64,000 nucleotides of DNA from Microbispora bryophytorum. Lineage in GTDB: Bacteria > Actinomycetota > Actinomycetes > Streptosporangiales > Streptosporangiaceae. The stretch covers positions 62,001-126,000 of the forward strand of contig NZ_VIRL01000020.1 of assembly GCF_006874465.1 (NCBI RefSeq). Reading direction: 5' to 3'. Of the stretch, positions 1,845 to 48,356 are shown one piece after another. The translations under genes were made by a program, and so were the position numbers. Numbering within the stretch: the stretch's first letter is position 1; each line of letters starts with the position of its first letter. Below the pieces are notes generated by a model that saw only the letters and a program-made list of their open reading frames with translations, did no database searches and had not been told where the DNA came from.

Positions 1845-2330
1845 GTGACCGAGAACGACGTCATCGAATTCGTGACCGGCCTGCCGGGTGTCGTCGCCTT
1901 CACCGCCGCGCAGGACAACGGCGCCCCGCAGGCGGCATGGGGAGACACCTTCTTCTACTGCGATCCCGACGGCGAACCGGCCAACCGGAAGATGCCCTTC
2001 GCCACGATCGTCGTGAAGGACTACGAGGGGTTTGACACCGCCTCCGACCTGAACCGCCCCGGCGTCTTCCGGGTCAACATCGGGGTCGGCCGTGCCGCGT
2101 TCGAGGAACTGCTCGGGTATCCGCCGGCCGCGCACGCCGACCACCACGAGGCGCTGGACTACCGCGTGCCGGACCGCATCCTGCCGCACCCCGTGTATGC
2201 CGCCCAGTCGTGGATCTGCGTGCTCAACCCCGGCGACGCCACCGCCGCACGGGTGCGTGCCCTCCTCACCGGCGCGCACGCCCGTGCGGCCGCCCGCCAC
2301 GGGACGGGTGACCGGGCCACCCGCGCGTGA
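1845..2330 (+). CDS. DUF6194 family protein
   Basis: 161 residues from a GTG preceded by AAAGGGA at a suitable distance. An in-frame TTG at 1797 would add 16 residues, but its extension contains purine-rich leader sequence, so I prefer 1845. Family features are visible: an [13 protein letters not shown] segment, [11 protein letters not shown], a [17 protein letters not shown] block, and the C-terminal [22 protein letters not shown]6194 proteins are small soluble actinobacterial proteins of unknown biochemistry. No clear operon partner: the stress-protein gene ends 133 bp upstream and the next gene starts 73 bp downstream. Confidence 0.8.
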
Positions 2331-2403
2331 ACCACCCGCACCCGCTGCCGCCCGGCGGCGGGTGTTAGCGTGGCCCGAGGAATGCGATCTTCGAGGAGGT
2401 CAC

Positions 2404-2712
2404 ATGTCGGTTCTCGTCGCGTTCAGCGTCACGCCGATCGGCGCCGGTGAGGATGTCGGCGAGATGGTGGCGGAGGCGGTGCGCGTGGTCCGCGCGTCCG
2501 GACTGCCCAACCGCACCGACGCCATGTTCACCACCGTCGAGGGGGAGACGTGGGACGAGGTGCTCGGCGTCGTCAAGGACGCGGTCGCCGCCGTTGAGGC
2601 CCGCTGCTCCCGCGTCAGCCTGGTGCTCAAGGCCGACGCCCGCGCCGGGCAGGGCAGGCTCGACGCCAAGGTCGCCACCGTGGAACGCCACCTCGCCGAA
2701 GACGCCTCCTGA
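2404..2712 (+). CDS. MTH1187/YqgV family thiamine-binding protein (DUF77)
   Basis: 102 residues with an ATG behind GAGGAGG. The opening [17 protein letters not shown], the central region with paired aromatic and acidic positions ([16 protein letters not shown]) and the closing residues on ageing repeats typical of ferredoxin-like folds match the MTH1187/YqgV family. Members form tetramers and some bind thiamine or its precursors. It lies 73 bp downstream of the DUF6194 gene and may be co-transcribed with it. Function in this organism is inferred only from the family. Confidence 0.85.
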
Positions 2713-2813
2713 TCACGGCCGGGGGCACCTCGCCGCCACCGCGCGCGGGCGCACCTCGAATGGCCGCACCTTCTCCACCTTCTCCGCTTGGGTCGGCCGG
2801 CGTGAGGTGACGG

Positions 2814-3497
2814 TCAGGTGGAGGCGGCCAGGGCGGCCTTGAGCGCCGAGCGGGACAGGCGGTCGGCGGCGCGCGTCGTCTCGGGAAGCCGGTGACGTGG
2901 GGTCAGGGTAAGCACGTCGTGGCAGGCGGTCTCCAGGTCGACGCGGTGGCCGACGGAGACGAAGACCGGTTTGACCCCGTCCCGGGTGCGCAGCACCCGG
3001 CCGACCACCTGTCCGTCCAGGAGCAGCTCGCTCCATGAGCCGCGCTCCCGGCCGGGCGACTCGAAGGAGCCGACGAAGGCCGTCTTGCCGACGCCGATCG
3101 TGGGCAGGCCGGTGAGCACCCCGAGATGGCAGGCGAGGCCGAACCGCCGCGGATGCGCCAGGCCGTACCCGTCGCAGACGATCAGGTCGGGTGTGACAGT
3201 GAGCCGCTCCAGCGCGTCGACGAGGCTGGGCAGTTCGCGGAAGGCGAGCAGGCCGGGCACGTAGCCGAAGGCGGGCCGTCCCGGCACCGTCACCTGCTCG
3301 ACCACGTCCAGACTCGTCCCGTCGAGCACCACGACCGCGGCGGCCAGCAGGTCGTCGGCGTAGGCCACGTCCACCCCCGCGACCAGGGCGGGGTCACGGG
3401 GACCCGGGCCGGTCAGGTCCAGCCGGGGCCGCAGGGCGTCCTGGATCGCCTCCGCCTCCTGGGCCGTGGCCGGAGCGGCGATGGAACAGATCTTCAT
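2814..3497 (-). CDS. nfi: Endonuclease V (deoxyinosine 3'-endonuclease)
   Basis: 227 residues, full family length. Endonuclease V cuts DNA one base 3' of deoxyinosine and starts repair of deaminated adenine. Metal-binding acidic residues are visible: Asp43 in GVDVAY, Glu88 in GLLAFRELP and Asp109 in VCDGYGLAHP. The conserved HPRRFGLACHLGV and IGVGKTAF blocks and the C-terminal FVSVGHRVDL block follow. The ATG lies 27 bp from the start of the divergent pilus remnant, so a short shared promoter region is implied. The gene looks intact. Confidence 0.95.
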   Translation of the reverse strand: MKICSIAAPATAQEAEAIQDALRPRLDLTGPGPRDPALVAGVDVAYADDLLAAAVVVLDGTSLDVVEQVTVPGRPAFGYVPGLLAFRELPSLVDALERLTVTPDLIVCDGYGLAHPRRFGLACHLGVLTGLPTIGVGKTAFVGSFESPGRERGSWSELLLDGQVVGRVLRTRDGVKPVFVSVGHRVDLETACHDVLTLTPRHRLPETTRAADRLSRSALKAALAAST

Positions 3498-3523
3498 GCG
3501 GGAACGATAGACGCCACCGGCGA

Positions 3524-40454: not shown

Positions 40455-41630
40455 TCACCCCGTGGTGACGGCGAACGGGCCACCGGCGCCGAACACGAGG
40501 CGGGCGAAGTTCTCGCCGATGCGGCGATGTCCCTCGGGGCCGGGGTGCACCTCGTCGGGCAGCGGCAGTTCCGCGTAGTCCGCCTCGCCGTAGAGGTCGC
40601 GACCGTCGAGGTAGTGCAGGTTCGGGTCGTCGGCCGCCCGCTGTCGCACGATCCGGGCGAGTTCGTCGCGGATGACGTTGAGGGTCAGACGCCCGGCGGC
40701 GCGCTCGGCGGGATCGCCCGTGGCCGTGAATCGCACGGTCCCGCCGTCGAAGCGGGGCGCGAGCGGGCCGGGGGTGTCCTCCTGGACCGGGCACAGGATG
40801 GAGGACACGACCAGCAGCGGCGTGGCCGGATGCCCCTCGCGAATGGTGTCGAGGAAGCCGTGGACCGCGGGGGTGAAGGCACGCAGGCGCATCACGTCGC
40901 CGTTGACGATGTTGATGCCGATCTTGACGCTGATCAGGTCGGCGGGGGTGTCCCGCATCGCGCGGGCGGTGAACGGGTCGAGTAGCGCGCTGCCGCCGAA
41001 CCCCAGATTGATCAGCTCCACTCCGCCCAGGGCGGCGGCCAGGGCCGGCCAGATGGCGGTCGGGTGGGCGGCGTTCGAGCCGTGGCTGATGGAACTGCCG
41101 TGGTGCAGCCACACCCGGGGTCCGCCGTCCGGCGCCGGCTCGATCGGGGTGTCGGTGCGCAGGGCGATCAGCTCGGTGATCTCCGTATGCGGCAGCCAGA
41201 TCTCGACGTTCTTGTCACGCGCGGGGAGATCGGCGAACCGGGCGGTGCCGGGAGGCCCTTCGCGCAGCTCGGCGGCCTGGGAGGCCAGGTCGATCAGGCG
41301 GACGTTGCCGCCGGTCACCGTGGCCTGGGCCGTGAGGCGGCCGTCGACGAGCAGGTCGTACACACCGTCCGCCGGGGCGGGAAGACCCCGGTAGGCCCTC
41401 TTGGTGGGCAGCGTGTCGAGTTCGATGGTGGTGGCCCGGGTCCGGAACGCCAGGCGTACGCCGGACGGCTGGGCCTCGGCCATGGCCAGTTGCCCGTCGG
41501 GGATCTGCCGGCGGGCCCAGGCGGGCAGCCGGTGCGGCAGCAGGCCGTGCGCCGTGCGTTCCACGTCGAGGGCGCCGCGCACGATGTCCGGGGTGACGGG
41601 TGTGGTGATCCAGTCGTGTTCGACACTCAT
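40455..41630 (-). CDS. SGNH/GDSL-type hydrolase with N-terminal carbohydrate-esterase-like domain
   Basis: 391 residues from an ATG at 41630. The N-terminal beta-sandwich (about 20-160) resembles the accessory domain of carbohydrate esterases. In the SGNH domain the nucleophile Ser lies in LHHGSSISHGSN, Gly in INLGFGGSALL, Asn in IGINIVNGDVM and the Asp/His pair in LPDEVHPGPEGHRRIG. All four catalytic blocks are present. No signal peptide, so intracellular. It probably deacylates sugars or a small ester. It follows the TetR gene by 87 bp on the same strand and may be under its control. Confidence 0.88.
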   Translation of the reverse strand: MSVEHDWITTPVTPDIVRGALDVERTAHGLLPHRLPAWARRQIPDGQLAMAEAQPSGVRLAFRTRATTIELDTLPTKRAYRGLPAPADGVYDLLVDGRLTAQATVTGGNVRLIDLASQAAELREGPPGTARFADLPARDKNVEIWLPHTEITELIALRTDTPIEPAPDGGPRVWLHHGSSISHGSNAAHPTAIWPALAAALGGVELINLGFGGSALLDPFTARAMRDTPADLISVKIGINIVNGDVMRLRAFTPAVHGFLDTIREGHPATPLLVVSSILCPVQEDTPGPLAPRFDGGTVRFTATGDPAERAAGRLTLNVIRDELARIVRQRAADDPNLHYLDGRDLYGEADYAELPLPDEVHPGPEGHRRIGENFARLVFGAGGPFAVTTG

Positions 41631-41680
41631 CGCCTCAGCCTGTTGATCGGGATTTCCGGGTGTTGCGCCGCGTCGGTGCG

Positions 41681-41712
41681 GCCCCTGGTGGTCACGGCCC
41701 CTGGTGGTCACG
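41681..41712. repeat. 16-bp tandem repeat between the TetR and SGNH genes
   Basis: GCCCCTGGTGGTCACG occurs twice in direct succession, with a third partial copy (GGTGGTCACGG) running into the 3' end of the TetR gene. Confidence 0.8.
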
Positions 41713-41717
41713 GGTGG

Positions 41718-42287
41718 TCACGGCGTCGTCCGGTCGCGCAGCATGGCGTCGAGGGAGTCCACGATCCAGGACCAGGATTCCTCCGGGTCGACGGCGGTGT
41801 GGCTGAAGCCTCCGCTCATCTCCAGGCTGACGTAGCCGTGGAACACGCTGCCCAGCATCCGGACCGCGTGCGTCTGGTCCGGCTCGGCGATGTCGTAGCC
41901 GCGCAGGATGGCCCGCGTCATCTGCGCGTGCCTGACTCCGGCGCTGGCGGCCGCCGTCTCGGGGTCGAGCCTGAGCCGGGCGGCGTCGTAGCGGCCGGGA
42001 TGCTCCCGGGCGTAGCCGCGATAGGCGTCCGCGAAGGCGGCCAGGGCGTCCTTGCCGGCGCGCCCGGCCAGCGCGTCCGCGACCCGGTCGGCGAGTTCCT
42101 CCAGCGCGAACAGGGCGATCGCGGTCTTCAGGTCCTGGGAGCTCTTCAGATGGGAGTAGAGACTCGCGACCTTGACGCCGAACCGCCGGGCCAGCGCCGA
42201 GATAGTCACCTGGTCGAAGCCGACCTCGTCGGCCAGCTCCGCCCCCGCCCTGATCAGACGTTCCGTGGTCAGTCCCGCTCGCGCCAT
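41718..42287 (-). CDS. TetR/AcrR family regulator (WHG-type C-terminal domain)
   Basis: 189 residues from an ATG at 42287 with GGGGAGAGGG just upstream. Helix-turn-helix: TTERLIRAGAELADEVGFDQ, then VTISALARRFGVKVASLYSH. The C-terminal domain includes FADAYRGYAREHPGRYD and FHGYVSLEMSGGFSH, as in WHG-domain TetR proteins. The 47-bp palindrome 24 bp upstream is its likely operator, so autoregulation is expected. The downstream SGNH hydrolase gene, on the same strand, is the probable co-regulated target. Confidence 0.92.
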   Translation of the reverse strand: MARAGLTTERLIRAGAELADEVGFDQVTISALARRFGVKVASLYSHLKSSQDLKTAIALFALEELADRVADALAGRAGKDALAAFADAYRGYAREHPGRYDAARLRLDPETAAASAGVRHAQMTRAILRGYDIAEPDQTHAVRMLGSVFHGYVSLEMSGGFSHTAVDPEESWSWIVDSLDAMLRDRTTP

Positions 42288-42310
42288 AACCCTCTCCCCG
42301 CTCCGCCTGG

Positions 42311-42357
42311 ACTCATTATGGATTTGCCTAACACGTTTAGGCAAATCCATAATGAGT
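42311..42357. promoter_or_regulatory. 47-bp perfect palindrome, likely TetR operator
   Basis: Two perfect 21-bp arms (left arm begins ACTCATTATGG and ends TTTGCCTAA) around the 5-bp centre CACGT. It is AT-rich in a GC-rich genome and lies 24 bp upstream of the TetR start. The core TTGCCTAA-CACGT-TTAGGCAA is the size of a TetR operator; the extra perfect flanks are unusually long. Confidence 0.8.
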
Positions 42358-42444
42358 GTCGCGAGGCTGTCCAGCGCATACCCGGCTACGGCGTCGCGCA
42401 GGAGGTCGGGCGGCCGCGGCTCAGGCATGTGCCGCACGGGCGTC

Positions 42445-42504
42445 GCGGACGGGGTGGGTGCGGACGGGGCGGGTGCGGACGGGGCGGGTGCGTACAGGGT
42501 GGGC
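42445..42504. repeat. 15-bp tandem repeat upstream of the TetR gene
   Basis: Four units of GCGGACGGGGYGGGT type at 42445, 42460, 42475 and 42490, the last degenerate. They lie in the gap between the TetR promoter and the GH43 terminator and are not part of a supported gene. Confidence 0.8.
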
Positions 42505-42565
42505 GAGGTGGCCATCGGCGGGCTCGCCGGGCTCGCCGGGCTCCAGGATCTGCCCCACGACAACC

Positions 42566-42598
42566 GGGCGGGCCGGCGAGGAGCTCGCCGGCCCGCCC
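42566..42598 (-). terminator. Strong hairpin terminator of the LamG-GH43 gene
   Basis: Perfect 15-bp stem (GGGCGGGCCGGCGAG / CTCGCCGGCCCGCCC) with a 3-nt loop, 22 bp past the GH43 stop on the minus strand. Confidence 0.8.
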
Positions 42599-42619
42599 AG
42601 GCCGCTCGTCACCTGCCGG

Positions 42620-45580
42620 CTACCGCACCCTCAACTTCTGGTAGTCGGCGGCGTGGGGCTGGTAGGTCGGGTTGCCGGAGTAGGCGACGTGGACCGTGTA
42701 CCCCCCGGGCTGCAGATCGGCGGTCCGCAGTGTGACGACGGCCTCGCCGTCCGCCAGGGGCACGACCTGCACGGTGCCGCCGAAGCTGACGGTGACCTCG
42801 CCGGTCGGGGTCGGAGCGCTCTTCTTCTGCCCGCCCGCCGGCCCGACGGTCACGTCCAGCTTGAACGTGTCGCCGCGGACAACCGACGCCGGCGCCGTTT
42901 TCGCCTTCACCTTGACGGCGTTCGGGCCGGAGGGCACCTGGAACGACGCCGTGCCCTCCGACGCCCCCAGGTAGTCGAAGCCGAGGTACTCGGCCTTGAC
43001 CGTCCGGGCGCCCGCGGGCAGATCCGCGGGCAGCGTGACCGTGGCCACGCCGTCGTCCAGGTGGGCGAGCTTCGACCACGAGCCGATGCTGAACCGCACC
43101 TGACCGCCGGTCTCGAACCCGTCGGCCGCCTTGACGGTGGCGGTGGCCGTGGTCGTCTGGGCCCCGCTCGCGTACGGCGCGACGGCCACCTCGGTGGTGG
43201 TCGTGACGTCGCTGTTCGGGATCCCGCGGATGTCGTTCCACTCGCGGACGGTGATCGGGATCACGGTGCCGTGACGCGGACGGACGACGCCCGCGTTGGT
43301 CATCGTGATCGCCTTGGCGTTCCAGGTCGGAGCCTCGATGTTGTCGTGGCACGCGGCCTGGTATCCACCACCGTTGGTGTACCGGTCACCCCAGAGGTAG
43401 AACTGGCCGGGGCAGGAGGTGTCACCGGGGTTGGCCTTGAAGATGATCGGCCCCTCGTACCCCTGGTTGGCGACCCACGTCGTGCGCCCCAGAGCCGGAG
43501 CGACCAACGTCCAGTTGTTGATGTTGCTGTCGAGGAAGTCGGTGTGCTTCTCCGAGAAGATGTCCGAGCCCTGGTTGCCGGCCTCGTTCTTGGTCACGCG
43601 GTAGTAGTTGTCACCGACCCGGATCGCGGTCGTGTCGATCCGCGACAGAGGGGCCGGGTTCTGCCAGACCTTGGGACCGGAGAACGTCTGGAAGTCGCGC
43701 GTCGTGGCGTACCACATCTGCGCGTTCCCCTGACCGGTGCGGTTCACGGGGTCGTTCCACATCGACTGTGCCCAGAAGACGGCGTAGGCGCCGATCTCCT
43801 CGACCCACAGCGACTCGGGTGCGAAGGCGTTGCCCGCGTTGTCGGGCGCGACTTTCACGTGCCGCTGAGGAGTCCAGTGCACGAGGTCGTGCGACTCGAA
43901 CACCTCGATGTACTGGGTGTCGTTGATGGCGTATCCGCCCTGGTCGTACCAGTTCAGGTCGGTGGCGATCATGTAGAACGTGTCGCCGTCCGGGGAGCGG
44001 ACGATGTGCGGGTCACGAAGGCCCTGGTCGCCCAGCTGGGAGATGAGCGACGGCCGGCCTCCGGTCAGACCGGTCCAGTCCAGAGCGGTGTTCCCGTTGG
44101 ACGTCGCGAACATGATCTGCTCGCCGTCGGCGATTCCCTCGCCCTTGAAGTACCCCATGAAGTACCGCTCGTACTCCTCGGAACGGGGCATGGCGGTGAT
44201 GGTCACCGGGAACGACTTCGTCTGCGAGGCCGAACCCTTGGTGATGGTCGCCGTCAGGACGGCCTCGACATTCGCGCGGCCGAAGGCCGGGCGGGTCACC
44301 TTGCCCGTCGGAGTGACGAGGTCGCTGGTCGACTTCCAGCTGATCGTGGATCCGAACTCGCCGGTGGCAGGGAGGTCGATGTTTCCGCGTACGTCGTCGA
44401 TGGCGTGCAGGCTCAGGTCGAACGTGTCACGGCCGACCGCCTGCGCGTCGTCGAACTCGGCCTTCACCACGATGGGGATCTCCCGTGTGGTGACCTCCTG
44501 GGCGCCCTTGCGGACCGTCGCCGTGAGCGTGGCCGTCGCGTCGGGCTGCCCCTTCGCGGGCCGGGTGATCCTGCCGGTCACCGCGACCTTGCGTGCGCTG
44601 GGGAGGGCCGGCGGGGTGGAGACCTCGACGACCGACGGGTCCGAACTCGTCCACGTGATGGCCGAGCCCGCCACGGAGCCCACCTTGGGCAGAACGATGT
44701 CACGGACGATCGCACTGGTCAGGCCGAGGTCGATGGCGTCGGCGTCGGCGTGAACGCCGGTGGAGACGGTCTTTCCCGCCAGGGCGAGCGTCTCGTCGAG
44801 GCTCACCGCCCGGTCGTAGACCCGGAAGTCCCGGATCGTTCCGCGGAATGAGTAGTTGCCCGACGTCTGGGAGCGAGCGAGGAAGTTGCAGTTGGTCCCC
44901 GCGGCGTTCACCGACGGCGCCGTGGTCAGGTTCGTCGACGTCGCGTGCAGCACGCCGTCGAGGTAAAGCCTGCCGGTCCAGCTCGTGCCGTTCGCGTTCT
45001 GCGACTGGGTGTAGGTGACGTGCGTCCACGCCGCCTCGGGCATGCGGACCCGGTTCTGCTGGAGGTTCGCCGAACCCACCGCGATGCGGAACCGCTGGGT
45101 GTTCGACGCGAAGATGGAGCCCTGGGCGCCGGTGTCGGCGTCGCACGAGCCGGACTTCGCGCCGAAGCCCCACATCTGGTGCTCGCCGACGTTCGCCGGG
45201 TCGATCCACACGTCATAGTCGACGGTGAGGTTCGACATGCCGGCGGTGATGTCGTTCGGCAGCGCCACGTACGCACCGGTGAGGGCGCTCTCGTAGGAGT
45301 CGGGGTTGAACCTGACTCCATCCCCGGTCAAGGTGGCCTTCTCCGGATTCACGAGCGTGGCGTTCGCCGCCGAGCCCGCGCTGCCCGAGTTGACCAGCGT
45401 CGTCCCACTCGTCTCGTTGAGGACGAAGTGGTGCACCAGCCCCTCGTTGAGGTTCTCCTCGGCGGCGTGCGAGGGCGTCGCCGCGAACGAGACCGAGACA
45501 AGCGCACCCAGCACCAGGCCCGCGACACCTCTACCCTTGCGACTCAGCCTGGGACGTGACCTTCGCTGTCGCAATCTCAA
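42620..45580 (-). CDS. Secreted GH43 enzyme with LamG and Ig-like domains
   Basis: 986 residues. Signal peptide about 1-39 (SRKGRGVAGLVLGALVSVSF to a SHA cleavage site). Then a LamG/concanavalin-like module (about 47-265), two atrophied bacterial Ig-like repeats (about 290-460, each with ITRPAKGQPDATATLTATV-type sequence), a GH43 five-bladed propeller (about 470-755) and two C-terminal Ig-like repeats (about 765-985). In the GH43 domain, Asp of GLRDPHIVRSPDG and Glu of AFAPESLWVEE fit catalytic positions. It likely removes arabinose or xylose units from plant polysaccharides outside the cell. It begins the arabinan-degrading block. Confidence 0.88.
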   Translation of the reverse strand: MRLRQRRSRPRLSRKGRGVAGLVLGALVSVSFAATPSHAAEENLNEGLVHHFVLNETSGTTLVNSGSAGSAANATLVNPEKATLTGDGVRFNPDSYESALTGAYVALPNDITAGMSNLTVDYDVWIDPANVGEHQMWGFGAKSGSCDADTGAQGSIFASNTQRFRIAVGSANLQQNRVRMPEAAWTHVTYTQSQNANGTSWTGRLYLDGVLHATSTNLTTAPSVNAAGTNCNFLARSQTSGNYSFRGTIRDFRVYDRAVSLDETLALAGKTVSTGVHADADAIDLGLTSAIVRDIVLPKVGSVAGSAITWTSSDPSVVEVSTPPALPSARKVAVTGRITRPAKGQPDATATLTATVRKGAQEVTTREIPIVVKAEFDDAQAVGRDTFDLSLHAIDDVRGNIDLPATGEFGSTISWKSTSDLVTPTGKVTRPAFGRANVEAVLTATITKGSASQTKSFPVTITAMPRSEEYERYFMGYFKGEGIADGEQIMFATSNGNTALDWTGLTGGRPSLISQLGDQGLRDPHIVRSPDGDTFYMIATDLNWYDQGGYAINDTQYIEVFESHDLVHWTPQRHVKVAPDNAGNAFAPESLWVEEIGAYAVFWAQSMWNDPVNRTGQGNAQMWYATTRDFQTFSGPKVWQNPAPLSRIDTTAIRVGDNYYRVTKNEAGNQGSDIFSEKHTDFLDSNINNWTLVAPALGRTTWVANQGYEGPIIFKANPGDTSCPGQFYLWGDRYTNGGGYQAACHDNIEAPTWNAKAITMTNAGVVRPRHGTVIPITVREWNDIRGIPNSDVTTTTEVAVAPYASGAQTTTATATVKAADGFETGGQVRFSIGSWSKLAHLDDGVATVTLPADLPAGARTVKAEYLGFDYLGASEGTASFQVPSGPNAVKVKAKTAPASVVRGDTFKLDVTVGPAGGQKKSAPTPTGEVTVSFGGTVQVVPLADGEAVVTLRTADLQPGGYTVHVAYSGNPTYQPHAADYQKLRVR

Positions 45581-45946
45581 TTGGTCCTCCTTGATGCGGT
45601 CACTGTGAACACGTGGGGCGCGGCCCCGTTCGGGGCGGGCCCGACCGCACTCGCGGGGGACTGGTCTCGTCGAGCGCTTCGACGAGACAAGGGCAGCACA
45701 GACAAAGGTTCACCTCGGCGTGTGATGGGGGGACGGAGTGAACGGGGGGATGAGCTATATGTCACAGGTGTCCGGTCTTGAATGCAGACACTAACCTCCA
45801 GTCCTAGCGAAAGATAGCTTCACTAGAAGCAAACTTCGCGAGTTAACTGGTGAAAGGTAGGCGAGGCCCGGATAAAGGTCTCATCCTTGCGACTAATCTG
45901 ACCCTGTCCCGCGGTCGGTCGCCCGGAAGAGTCGCGCAAGAAGACG

Positions 45947-45993: not shown

Positions 45994-47553
45994 CTATGCC
46001 CAGGGCTGGGAGACGACCCAGCTCACGTCGGCGTTCCATGCGGTGGCGTTGTCGAAGGCGTTCGAGCCGCCGTTGCTGGCGATGTAGACGACGTTGTTGT
46101 AATGGCGGATGAACCGGGTCGGGAAGTTGTAGGAGGCGAACGACGTGCCCTGACCGCTCTTCCCCGCCTGCGGGCAGAAGGTGGCGTCGGAGGCGAACAG
46201 TGAACTGCCGTCGTTGGGCTGCCGGTGGAGCTGGTAGTTCTGGTGGCGCAGGAAGTCGCCGGGGTAGTTCCGCGACTCGAACGACACGCACGAACTGCTG
46301 GCCAGGCCGCTGCGCACGATCCAGGTGGCGTCGTTCTTGTCCAGTGTGGAGCTGGACGAGGTGATCACCGACGTGATGGCGTCGTCTTCATAGTGTCGGA
46401 TGTAGCGGTCGGTGTAGCCGGACGTCGTCGCGCGCAGCGAGATCGACGAGCCGGGGGTGAGCGTCCCACCGGGGGTGCCGGTGCCCGACGTCGAGTATCC
46501 GGCGGCGACGATGTTGGCCTGGACCGCGTTCTCGGTGGCGTCGGTCGGATAGCCCGAAGTCATCACGCCCTCGTAGAAGGTGCCCCTGGCGCCCACGCTG
46601 TTGTCACCGCCGATGCCGAGGATGATGGCGCCTTCCTTTTTCATCGGGTTGTAGCCCGAGACGTTGGGCCGTACCCCGTTGTAGAAGGTCGACAGGCTGC
46701 CCGACTGGGCGTTGCCGCCGCGGATGGCCCAGTGGTTGGGCTCACCCTTGATGATGGCGGTCAGGAACCGGTGGCTGATGCTCGGGTCGCCCGCGTTGTA
46801 GTGCTGGTTCACGCCCGAGAACAGGCCGTTCTCCAGGTCGGCCATGATCCAGGGGCCGTTGCCGGCGCCGTATCCCCAGACCTTGATGTTGCCGAAGTAG
46901 ATGGCCTCCATCGTGCCGTTGCCGTTGTCGCGGCTGTTGGTCTCGGCGTTGCCGTAGTCGAAGCAGCAGCCGCCGTTGTAGTGGGTGCCGTCGAAGATGG
47001 CGTACATGCCCTCCGGCTGGTCGCCCTTGGCGACGCCGTTGGTGTTGTTGTTGCGGTAGCCGGTGCCGGGGGCCACGTAGACGCCGTAGGCCTTGTGACC
47101 ACCGACCGTGATCGGCGCCGCGGTGGCGACCGCGAGGTTGTCGTAGCCGCCCGCGGCCGGGCCGGCGAACCCGCCGGGAGGCGCCTGCGTGAGCCGGTTG
47201 TTGCGGCCGGACTGGTCGTAGATGATCGTGATCAGGCAGGTGGTGCCGGAGCAGAACGAGTCCTGCGCGGAAGCGTCGGCCACCCCGCCCGTGCTCAGCA
47301 CGCCGATGTCGCGGGTGGCGTTGTCCGAGGTGCGGCGCACCTGATAGAGCGGACCGTTGTAGTTGCCGTAGAGCGCACGGGTCGTGCTGTGCGCCGCGAC
47401 GCACGGTGTGCCGCCCGCCGCGTAGATGTCACACGGCCCCTGCCCGGCCGCCTCCGACGGTGCCGCGAGGCCGGCCAGCAGGCCCGCGGCGAGCGTGATC
47501 GCCGCGCCCGCGGACAGCGCCACCCGCTTCAGACGCCCTGATCGGAAAATCAT
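45994..47553 (-). CDS. GH54 alpha-L-arabinofuranosidase with C-terminal CBM42 (AbfB type)
   Basis: 519 residues from an ATG at 47553. Signal peptide about 1-36 (KRVALSAGAAITLAAGLLAG, then APSEA). The mature protein begins with the GH54 catalytic sandwich (GPCDIYAAGGTPCVAAHSTT). The nucleophile Glu lies in GCCFDYGNAETNS and the acid/base Asp region near YNGVRPNVSGYN; the paired Cys are those of the fungal AbfB fold. The C-terminal CBM42 beta-trefoil (about 385-519) contains repeated RYIRHYEDD and RFIRHYNNV blocks that bind arabinofuranose side chains. The enzyme releases arabinose from arabinoxylan. A LacI-type operator lies 46 bp upstream. Confidence 0.94.
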   Translation of the reverse strand: MIFRSGRLKRVALSAGAAITLAAGLLAGLAAPSEAAGQGPCDIYAAGGTPCVAAHSTTRALYGNYNGPLYQVRRTSDNATRDIGVLSTGGVADASAQDSFCSGTTCLITIIYDQSGRNNRLTQAPPGGFAGPAAGGYDNLAVATAAPITVGGHKAYGVYVAPGTGYRNNNTNGVAKGDQPEGMYAIFDGTHYNGGCCFDYGNAETNSRDNGNGTMEAIYFGNIKVWGYGAGNGPWIMADLENGLFSGVNQHYNAGDPSISHRFLTAIIKGEPNHWAIRGGNAQSGSLSTFYNGVRPNVSGYNPMKKEGAIILGIGGDNSVGARGTFYEGVMTSGYPTDATENAVQANIVAAGYSTSGTGTPGGTLTPGSSISLRATTSGYTDRYIRHYEDDAITSVITSSSSTLDKNDATWIVRSGLASSSCVSFESRNYPGDFLRHQNYQLHRQPNDGSSLFASDATFCPQAGKSGQGTSFASYNFPTRFIRHYNNVVYIASNGGSNAFDNATAWNADVSWVVSQPWA

Positions 47554-47598
47554 GAGGCTTTCCGTGCCTTCCTGGTGGGGGGTGTCTCTGAGAGAGAG

Positions 47599-47612
47599 TG
47601 TTAGCGTTAACA
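47599..47612. promoter_or_regulatory. LacI-family operator upstream of the GH54 gene
   Basis: TGTTAGCGTTAACA, a near-perfect palindrome of the LacI class, 46 bp upstream of the ATG. It matches the site at 52994-53007 at 12 of 14 positions. Confidence 0.75.
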
Positions 47613-48356
47613 ATTGCAGTTGTGAGCCTGCCGTCTCACAGTCGTGCACGGGGGATCGGTGCGCTCAGTTTTTGCTTCTGACCCGTCTCCGTCAAGGCCC
47701 GAATTCGTGGGGAAGGCCTTCACCCGCGCCGTCCGGGTCTCGTCCGGGATCGGCTTACCGCGCGGGAGGCTGCGACCCGCCTGTATTGATCAGCGCCGCG
47801 TTGTGCTGCTCGGGAGATATTCCGCGGCGCTCGCCCGGCGCCGCGACATCCCGATCCGTCCGGCCGCGCGGGCGTGGAACGGAAAGCCCTGAAAGTTTCA
47901 CGATCGACGCTCACGCGCCGCGTCTCGACGCCCGGACGCTGCTGTGCGGCTTGGGTGACAGTGCGGCGCGGTCAGCGCGAGCTGACCTGCACACCGGAAA
48001 CACCGCACTCATGGCGCGACGGCCGACGGCCGCCGCGCCATCCTGGTGCCGACGGCGACCGCCACGCGAGGCGGACACGTCTCATCGACGATTCCCCGGT
48101 GGTCGGCCCGCAGTCGCGACGGCGTCTCCTGCGGACGGCCGGCGCCCGGTCTGGATCAGGGTGTAGCCGGTCTTGCGCGTCGGTGCGGTCGCGGTACCAA
48201 AAAAATGTGTGTGCGCCTGACGGCATGTGCGCTTCGAGCGAGGGCGGATGAAGATCAAGGCCCTGGCCGGGGAGGGCGCCTGCGCGTGGACGCCCGCCGA
48301 CGTGCCGCCGAGGGAGCGGTACTCGCATGAGGCGCTTCCTCGACGGGGCGTCCGCC
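47613..48356. other. Intergenic stretch between the GH54 and small tudor-like genes
   Basis: About 740 bp without a supported gene. Frames are either short or shadow-like. A short plus-strand frame beginning MKIKALAGEGACAWTPADV near 48248 is noted, but it overlaps nothing known and is unsupported. No further operator or hairpin was recognised. Confidence 0.4.

Follow-up and report, generated by a model that had tools for sequence, protein, structure and literature searches.

The 47-bp perfect palindrome that precedes a TetR-family repressor gene in the 64-kb stretch of Microbispora bryophytorum DNA analysed here (the window) is probably an ordinary autoregulatory operator placed over the promoter of a TetR and GDSL hydrolase gene pair, with an outer symmetry that appears to be recent, species-specific and templated by the opposite arm. 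Comparison with relatives separates a conserved core (23 bp and a −10 box) from the outer symmetry, which is probably a by-product of copying; a striking perfect palindrome need not mean selection along its full length. The same comparison provides a predicted operator for the TetR–GDSL hydrolase operon of many genera of the family, as well as of Streptomyces. The palindrome and the genes next to it are as follows.

42311..42357, no strand: 47-bp perfect palindrome with 21-bp arms around the 5-nt centre CACGT
41718..42287, minus strand: gene for a TetR-family repressor of 189 aa (TetR_N and TetR_C_33, from a Pfam scan)
42290..42299, minus strand: likely ribosome-binding site of the TetR gene, purine-rich GGGGAGAGGG, read from the sequence
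40455..41630, minus strand: gene for a GDSL/SGNH hydrolase of 391 aa (Lipase_GDSL_2 and SsfX3_N, from a Pfam scan)

The first-pass annotation had described a 47-bp perfect palindrome before a TetR gene, and the description holds: the arms (42311-42331 and 42337-42357) are 21 nt each, 100% complementary and 5 nt apart. This is the longest close inverted repeat of the window, where such repeats were counted with perfect arms of at least 12 and spacers of up to 10; three further ones have arms of 14–15 bp, all 93% GC. The palindrome arm, at 33% GC, contrasts with the 70.6% GC of the window as a whole. From base composition, arms of such length are expected 4.3e-6 times per window, and in 20 simulated first-order Markov windows the longest arms reached 9–12 bp. 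Folded as single-stranded DNA, the segment 42300-42368 has an energy of −24.5 kcal/mol, and shuffled versions average −6.5 (z −8.7). A chance origin of the palindrome is excluded by this composition and folding. Neither the arm nor the 23-bp core has a second copy, with up to three mismatches, across the 7.85-Mb draft genome; since these own-genome pattern searches gave this site alone, no wider regulon is proposed. The inner 39 bp of the palindrome, searched as a pattern with up to three mismatches, occur in two of 341 family genomes: the one to which the window belongs and that of a relative, G007, which has three mismatches.

On the minus strand, the palindrome is followed by 23 bp, the ATG of the TetR gene and, further downstream, the GDSL hydrolase gene. 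Both domains of the TetR protein pass the Pfam cut-off (PF00440, E 5.4e-8; PF13305, E 4.8e-26), and the solved structure that it matches best by sequence is that of a TetR-family regulator, 1zk8_A (E 9e-28). The start codon of the hydrolase gene was picked by eye, the Pfam scan having taken a longer open reading frame from 41711. Both genes likely form one operon. Of 87 loci compared, 68 have a GDSL hydrolase gene downstream of the TetR gene; among the 76 with TetR proteins at least 73% identical the count is 67, and the other nine closer loci show none in the stretch examined, which in one of them (L008) is shortened by a contig end.

These loci come from a search of 100 genomes (own included), 98 of which gave a match with E ≤0.001, many being merely other TetR proteins, and of 341 family genomes (own included), 74 of which gave a match with E ≤1e-85. 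The upstream regions of 87 loci were compared, including the window and two loci from Streptomyces; conservation was scored in 75 relatives with a TetR protein at least 73% identical, and counts out of 76 include the window. In these 75 relatives, the central 23 bp, TTTGCCTAAAnnnnTTAGGCAAA, here named O1, are conserved with the exception of one C at 0.24 bits, and are followed towards the gene by a conserved CATAAT −10 box and by a weaker TTTAGGCAA. On the far flank, columns −3 to −12 hold 0.00–0.46 bits each. The symmetry of the core is perfect (9/9 pairs) in 17 of 76 loci, while outer symmetry amounts to 12/12 in the window and to 0–7 in the remaining 75 loci. The gene-side CATAAT is matched at five or more of its six positions in 44 of the 76 loci, window included, and one loose rule recovered the TetR-ward promoter in 57 of them, again with the window, and failed in 19. 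A further 14 less similar relatives (54–68% identical), in one of which (L125) the start codon is misplaced, have best core matches of 14–15/19 in four cases and 9–12 in ten, and for this reason were left out of the operator analysis.

42323..42345, minus strand: core operator O1, TTTGCCTAAACGTGTTAGGCAAA on the TetR-ward strand, conserved in relatives
42339..42344, minus strand: −35-like TTGCCT of the predicted TetR promoter, within O1, from a promoter scan
42315..42320, minus strand: −10-like CATAAT of the predicted TetR promoter, from a promoter scan, conserved in relatives

The conservation of this core makes it very probable that the palindrome contains a TetR operator, as the first-pass annotation had assumed, and that this operator is the 23-bp O1. 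At the sequence level, a conserved inverted repeat overlaps the hexamers of the promoter from which the regulator itself would be transcribed. The promoter scan detected TTGCCT-18-CATAAT on both strands within the palindrome (mean of 0.0 in 50 shuffles), TTGCCT being a poor match to the −35 consensus TTGACA. Since the TetR-ward −10 box ends at 42315, transcription of the TetR gene is predicted to start at about 42308, just beyond the palindrome. According to this model, the TetR-family repressor would bind O1 and, as this site overlaps the predicted promoter of the TetR gene, would keep the TetR–GDSL hydrolase operon from being transcribed until its release by a ligand. In the part of the MAB_4384 report available (PMC5895659), a similar arrangement is found, with an inverted repeat of similar core length beside the TetR gene and proposed self-repression. 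Unlike MAB_4384 as portrayed there, promoter-like hexamers lie inside the palindrome in our case, the 47-bp symmetry is found in one species, and a GDSL hydrolase gene, instead of an efflux pump, is the typical neighbour. A search of the open-licence literature with the letters TTAGGCAAA gave no TetR title among the matches listed.

The most informative relative for the outer symmetry is G007, in which the inverted repeat is present but imperfect (core 9/9 pairs, outer symmetry 7/12).

42346..42357, no strand: far outer arm, a proposed templated patch, from comparison with G007

The far arm of the window differs from that of G007 at 42348, 42349, 42351, 42355, and 42356 (5 of 12 positions), and all five differences pair with the window's gene-side arm, restoring the symmetry. 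Two hallmarks of quasipalindrome correction, an imperfect form in a relative and clustered changes complementary to the other arm, are thus found. On the gene side, the outer arm is the same in the window and in another relative, G013, and is therefore probably ancestral. Elsewhere in the palindrome, G007 and the window disagree at two gene-side positions and at one central position, for an overall identity of 39/47. Starting from a G007-like state, five random changes among 12 positions would produce the perfect outcome with a probability of 5.2e-6, a figure that takes the G007 far arm as ancestral and includes no correction for the visual selection of the palindrome. In a tree built from the TetR proteins of 24 loci, the window is sister to G007 (support 96/88), with G013 and G014 beside this pair in an unresolved fork; the bootstrap had not converged.

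We infer that the far flank, already partly symmetrical, was rewritten in this species and now complements the gene-side flank at every position, probably as the result of one template-switch (quasipalindrome-correction) event. On this view, the perfect 47-bp palindrome would have arisen by mutation around an operator that is itself conserved. A single event is indistinguishable from several, since the comparison covers one strain of this species, and the identity with G007 immediately to the right of the palindrome is only 14/26, so the far arm may sit at a rearrangement junction rather than being a clean patch. Arm homogenisation by template switching is known in E. coli and yeast, where the available parts of the reports (PMC7202029, PMC8604942) likewise describe how clustered changes, copied from one arm to the other, turn an imperfect repeat into a perfect one. 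Contrary to the cases described in those parts, the present one concerns a bacterial operator and is known from species comparison alone, without a parent strain. In the open-licence literature, nothing was found on a Streptomyces TetR–GDSL operator, on two TetR dimers, or on template switching with operators.

The proposed patch also lies where homology with relatives is lost. Homology with seven relatives from the same genus ends at 42346-42370, and resumes near 45940 in five of them. Six of the seven hold a divergent PadR gene (as do 6 of the 87 loci in total), of which the window appears to retain a fragment.

42383..42414, plus strand: apparent 32-bp remnant of the divergent PadR gene, matched to six same-genus relatives

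This remnant is 94% identical to five of the relatives, and 92% identical over 26 bp to the sixth. The seventh, G014, is also devoid of PadR, as its next homologous stretch is just ~23 bp away, yet it has no perfect palindrome. The gene now adjoining TetR (42620-45580) encodes LamG and Ig-like domains and has a GH43 match (E 5.8e-7) below the Pfam cut-off; in G005, G010, and G012, this GH43-like gene adjoins DNA that matches positions 2000-3500 of the window, ~40 kb away. These breaks in homology, together with the displaced GH43-like gene, place the palindrome on the border of a rearranged stretch. With the PadR gene lost, the far flank may have become free to change, and the rewriting of the arm perhaps coincided in time with the decay of that gene. 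Tandem 15-bp repeats of the type GCGGACGGGGCGGGT occupy 42445-42504, between the palindrome and the GH43-like gene. Directly past the stop codon of the latter, a GC-rich perfect inverted repeat with 15-bp arms (42566-42598) seems to have moved with the gene, as the homology of the GH43-like segment starts at 42567 in several relatives. The GH43-like gene is also adjoined by a gene for an alpha-L-arabinofuranosidase B with an ABFB domain (45997-47649), suggesting an arabinan-degrading pair.

The first-pass annotation had attributed the perfect arms to recent origin or strong selection. Symmetry in a single species argues for the recent origin, while selection on all 42 paired positions is at odds with the 0.00–0.46 bits of the far arm. 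Relatives keep the central 23 bp and the gene-side −10 box, essentially the pattern that the annotation itself had named as a sign that the outer arms are chance or recent inversion. Selection could still have made the outer arms symmetrical if this species profits from a stronger site or from a divergent promoter under TetR control, and the far arm now holds a mirror −10 box at the gene-side spacing. This explanation is improbable: the outermost GAGT of the far arm (plus strand) is symmetrical even though three of the four gene-side columns are free (0.01–0.18 bits; the fourth, a T, is at 1.62 bits), and no rightward gene is evident, the palindrome being followed by the apparent PadR remnant and then by the GH43-like gene, which has the opposite orientation and is reached at its 3' end.

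A slightly less probable proposal is that the palindrome region serves as a single extended operator to which at least two TetR dimers bind. Binding by two dimers is the model for some TetR proteins, among them MAB_4384 on its 27-bp palindrome, according to the available part of that report (PMC5895659), and a candidate second site is present next to O1.

42303..42323, minus strand: candidate degenerate second site O2, its centre 21 bp closer to the gene than that of O1; weak in this species

For each of the two O1 half-sites, the strongest recurrence is shifted by +21 bp in the gene-ward direction (75 loci, window included), with a mean of 4.53/8 for the right half (next best 3.39) and of 4.23 for the left half (versus 3.60). 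In a set of nine more distant loci, this offset again ranks first for the two halves, and 35 of 73 loci score highest there among offsets 5-49. Against several dimers stand the unconserved far outer arm and the degeneracy of O2, whose left half overlaps the −10 box and whose right half matches at 4/8 in the window. Pairwise covariation between O1 and O2 was not significant (p 0.11), and the same test gave smaller p values at six other offsets (17, 38, 43, 42, 9, and 32), so covariation lends no support to O2. The earlier idea of two overlapping operators gains some weak backing as a degenerate gene-ward site and none as a site formed by the outer arms; O2 is a lead only. On tandem operators, nothing on point was found in the open-licence literature.

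The first-pass annotation had also considered a hairpin that controls the transcript. Although the fold is very stable (with DNA parameters only), the TetR mRNA is unlikely to contain such a hairpin, because the predicted promoter is inside the palindrome and the predicted RNA start lies outside it. Moreover, no terminator-like site was detected in 42200-42700, no Rfam match reached the gathering threshold in 41600-42800, and the upstream gene has its own GC-rich repeat at 42566-42598, albeit without a T-run acceptable to the scan. A role in RNA as terminator or attenuator is therefore the least credible of these explanations. Hardly more credible is a mobile-element fragment or an assembly error: the palindrome does adjoin a rearranged stretch in a draft assembly of 137 contigs, but it is single-copy in the genome, and its core and gene-side arm align with, and are common to, relatives.

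If the far arm was templated, as favoured above, the copied arm brings a second −10 box, so that two back-to-back promoter-like sites share the operator.

42324..42329, plus strand: −35-like TTGCCT of the putative mirror-image promoter, from a promoter scan (consensus match)
42348..42353, plus strand: −10-like CATAAT of the putative mirror-image promoter, from a promoter scan, in 1 of 76 loci

By the loose rule used for the TetR-ward promoter, the mirror promoter is found in the window alone (1/76 loci); promoter elements occur on both strands of one site, by consensus match only. It is conceivable, though doubtful, that one template switch mirror-copied the −10 box and turned a one-way promoter into a symmetrical divergent promoter under the same repressor. 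If true, this would represent a direct mutational path from directional to bidirectional promoters, and an active mirror promoter would be a clean natural example of the birth of a symmetrical promoter. For bidirectional promoters of E. coli, the available part of a report (PMC12825309) describes starts around a shared −10 element; as there, the DNA is symmetrical and RNA polymerase could bind either way. Unlike the promoters in that part of the report, the window has two whole predicted promoters back to back, with the −35 elements inside and the −10 elements outside. Judging from titles and the beginnings of abstracts, none of the open-licence literature on template switching with bidirectional promoters was on point.

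Other loci show further variation around the operator. A gene for an FBP_C-like (treble-clef zinc-finger) protein is divergent from TetR and near the operator in 17 of the 87 loci (L002, L024, L027-L035, L037, L042, L051, L052, L055, L089), suggesting that the operator may control that gene there; the identities of the FBP_C-like and PadR neighbours come from a Pfam scan of one representative of each. One of the 14 less similar loci, L112, is a TetR copy from the own genome (C63:14889-15746, 54% identical). Upstream of it, CCTAGG-type letters are found in place of TTAGGCA, which suggests a diverged operator specificity.
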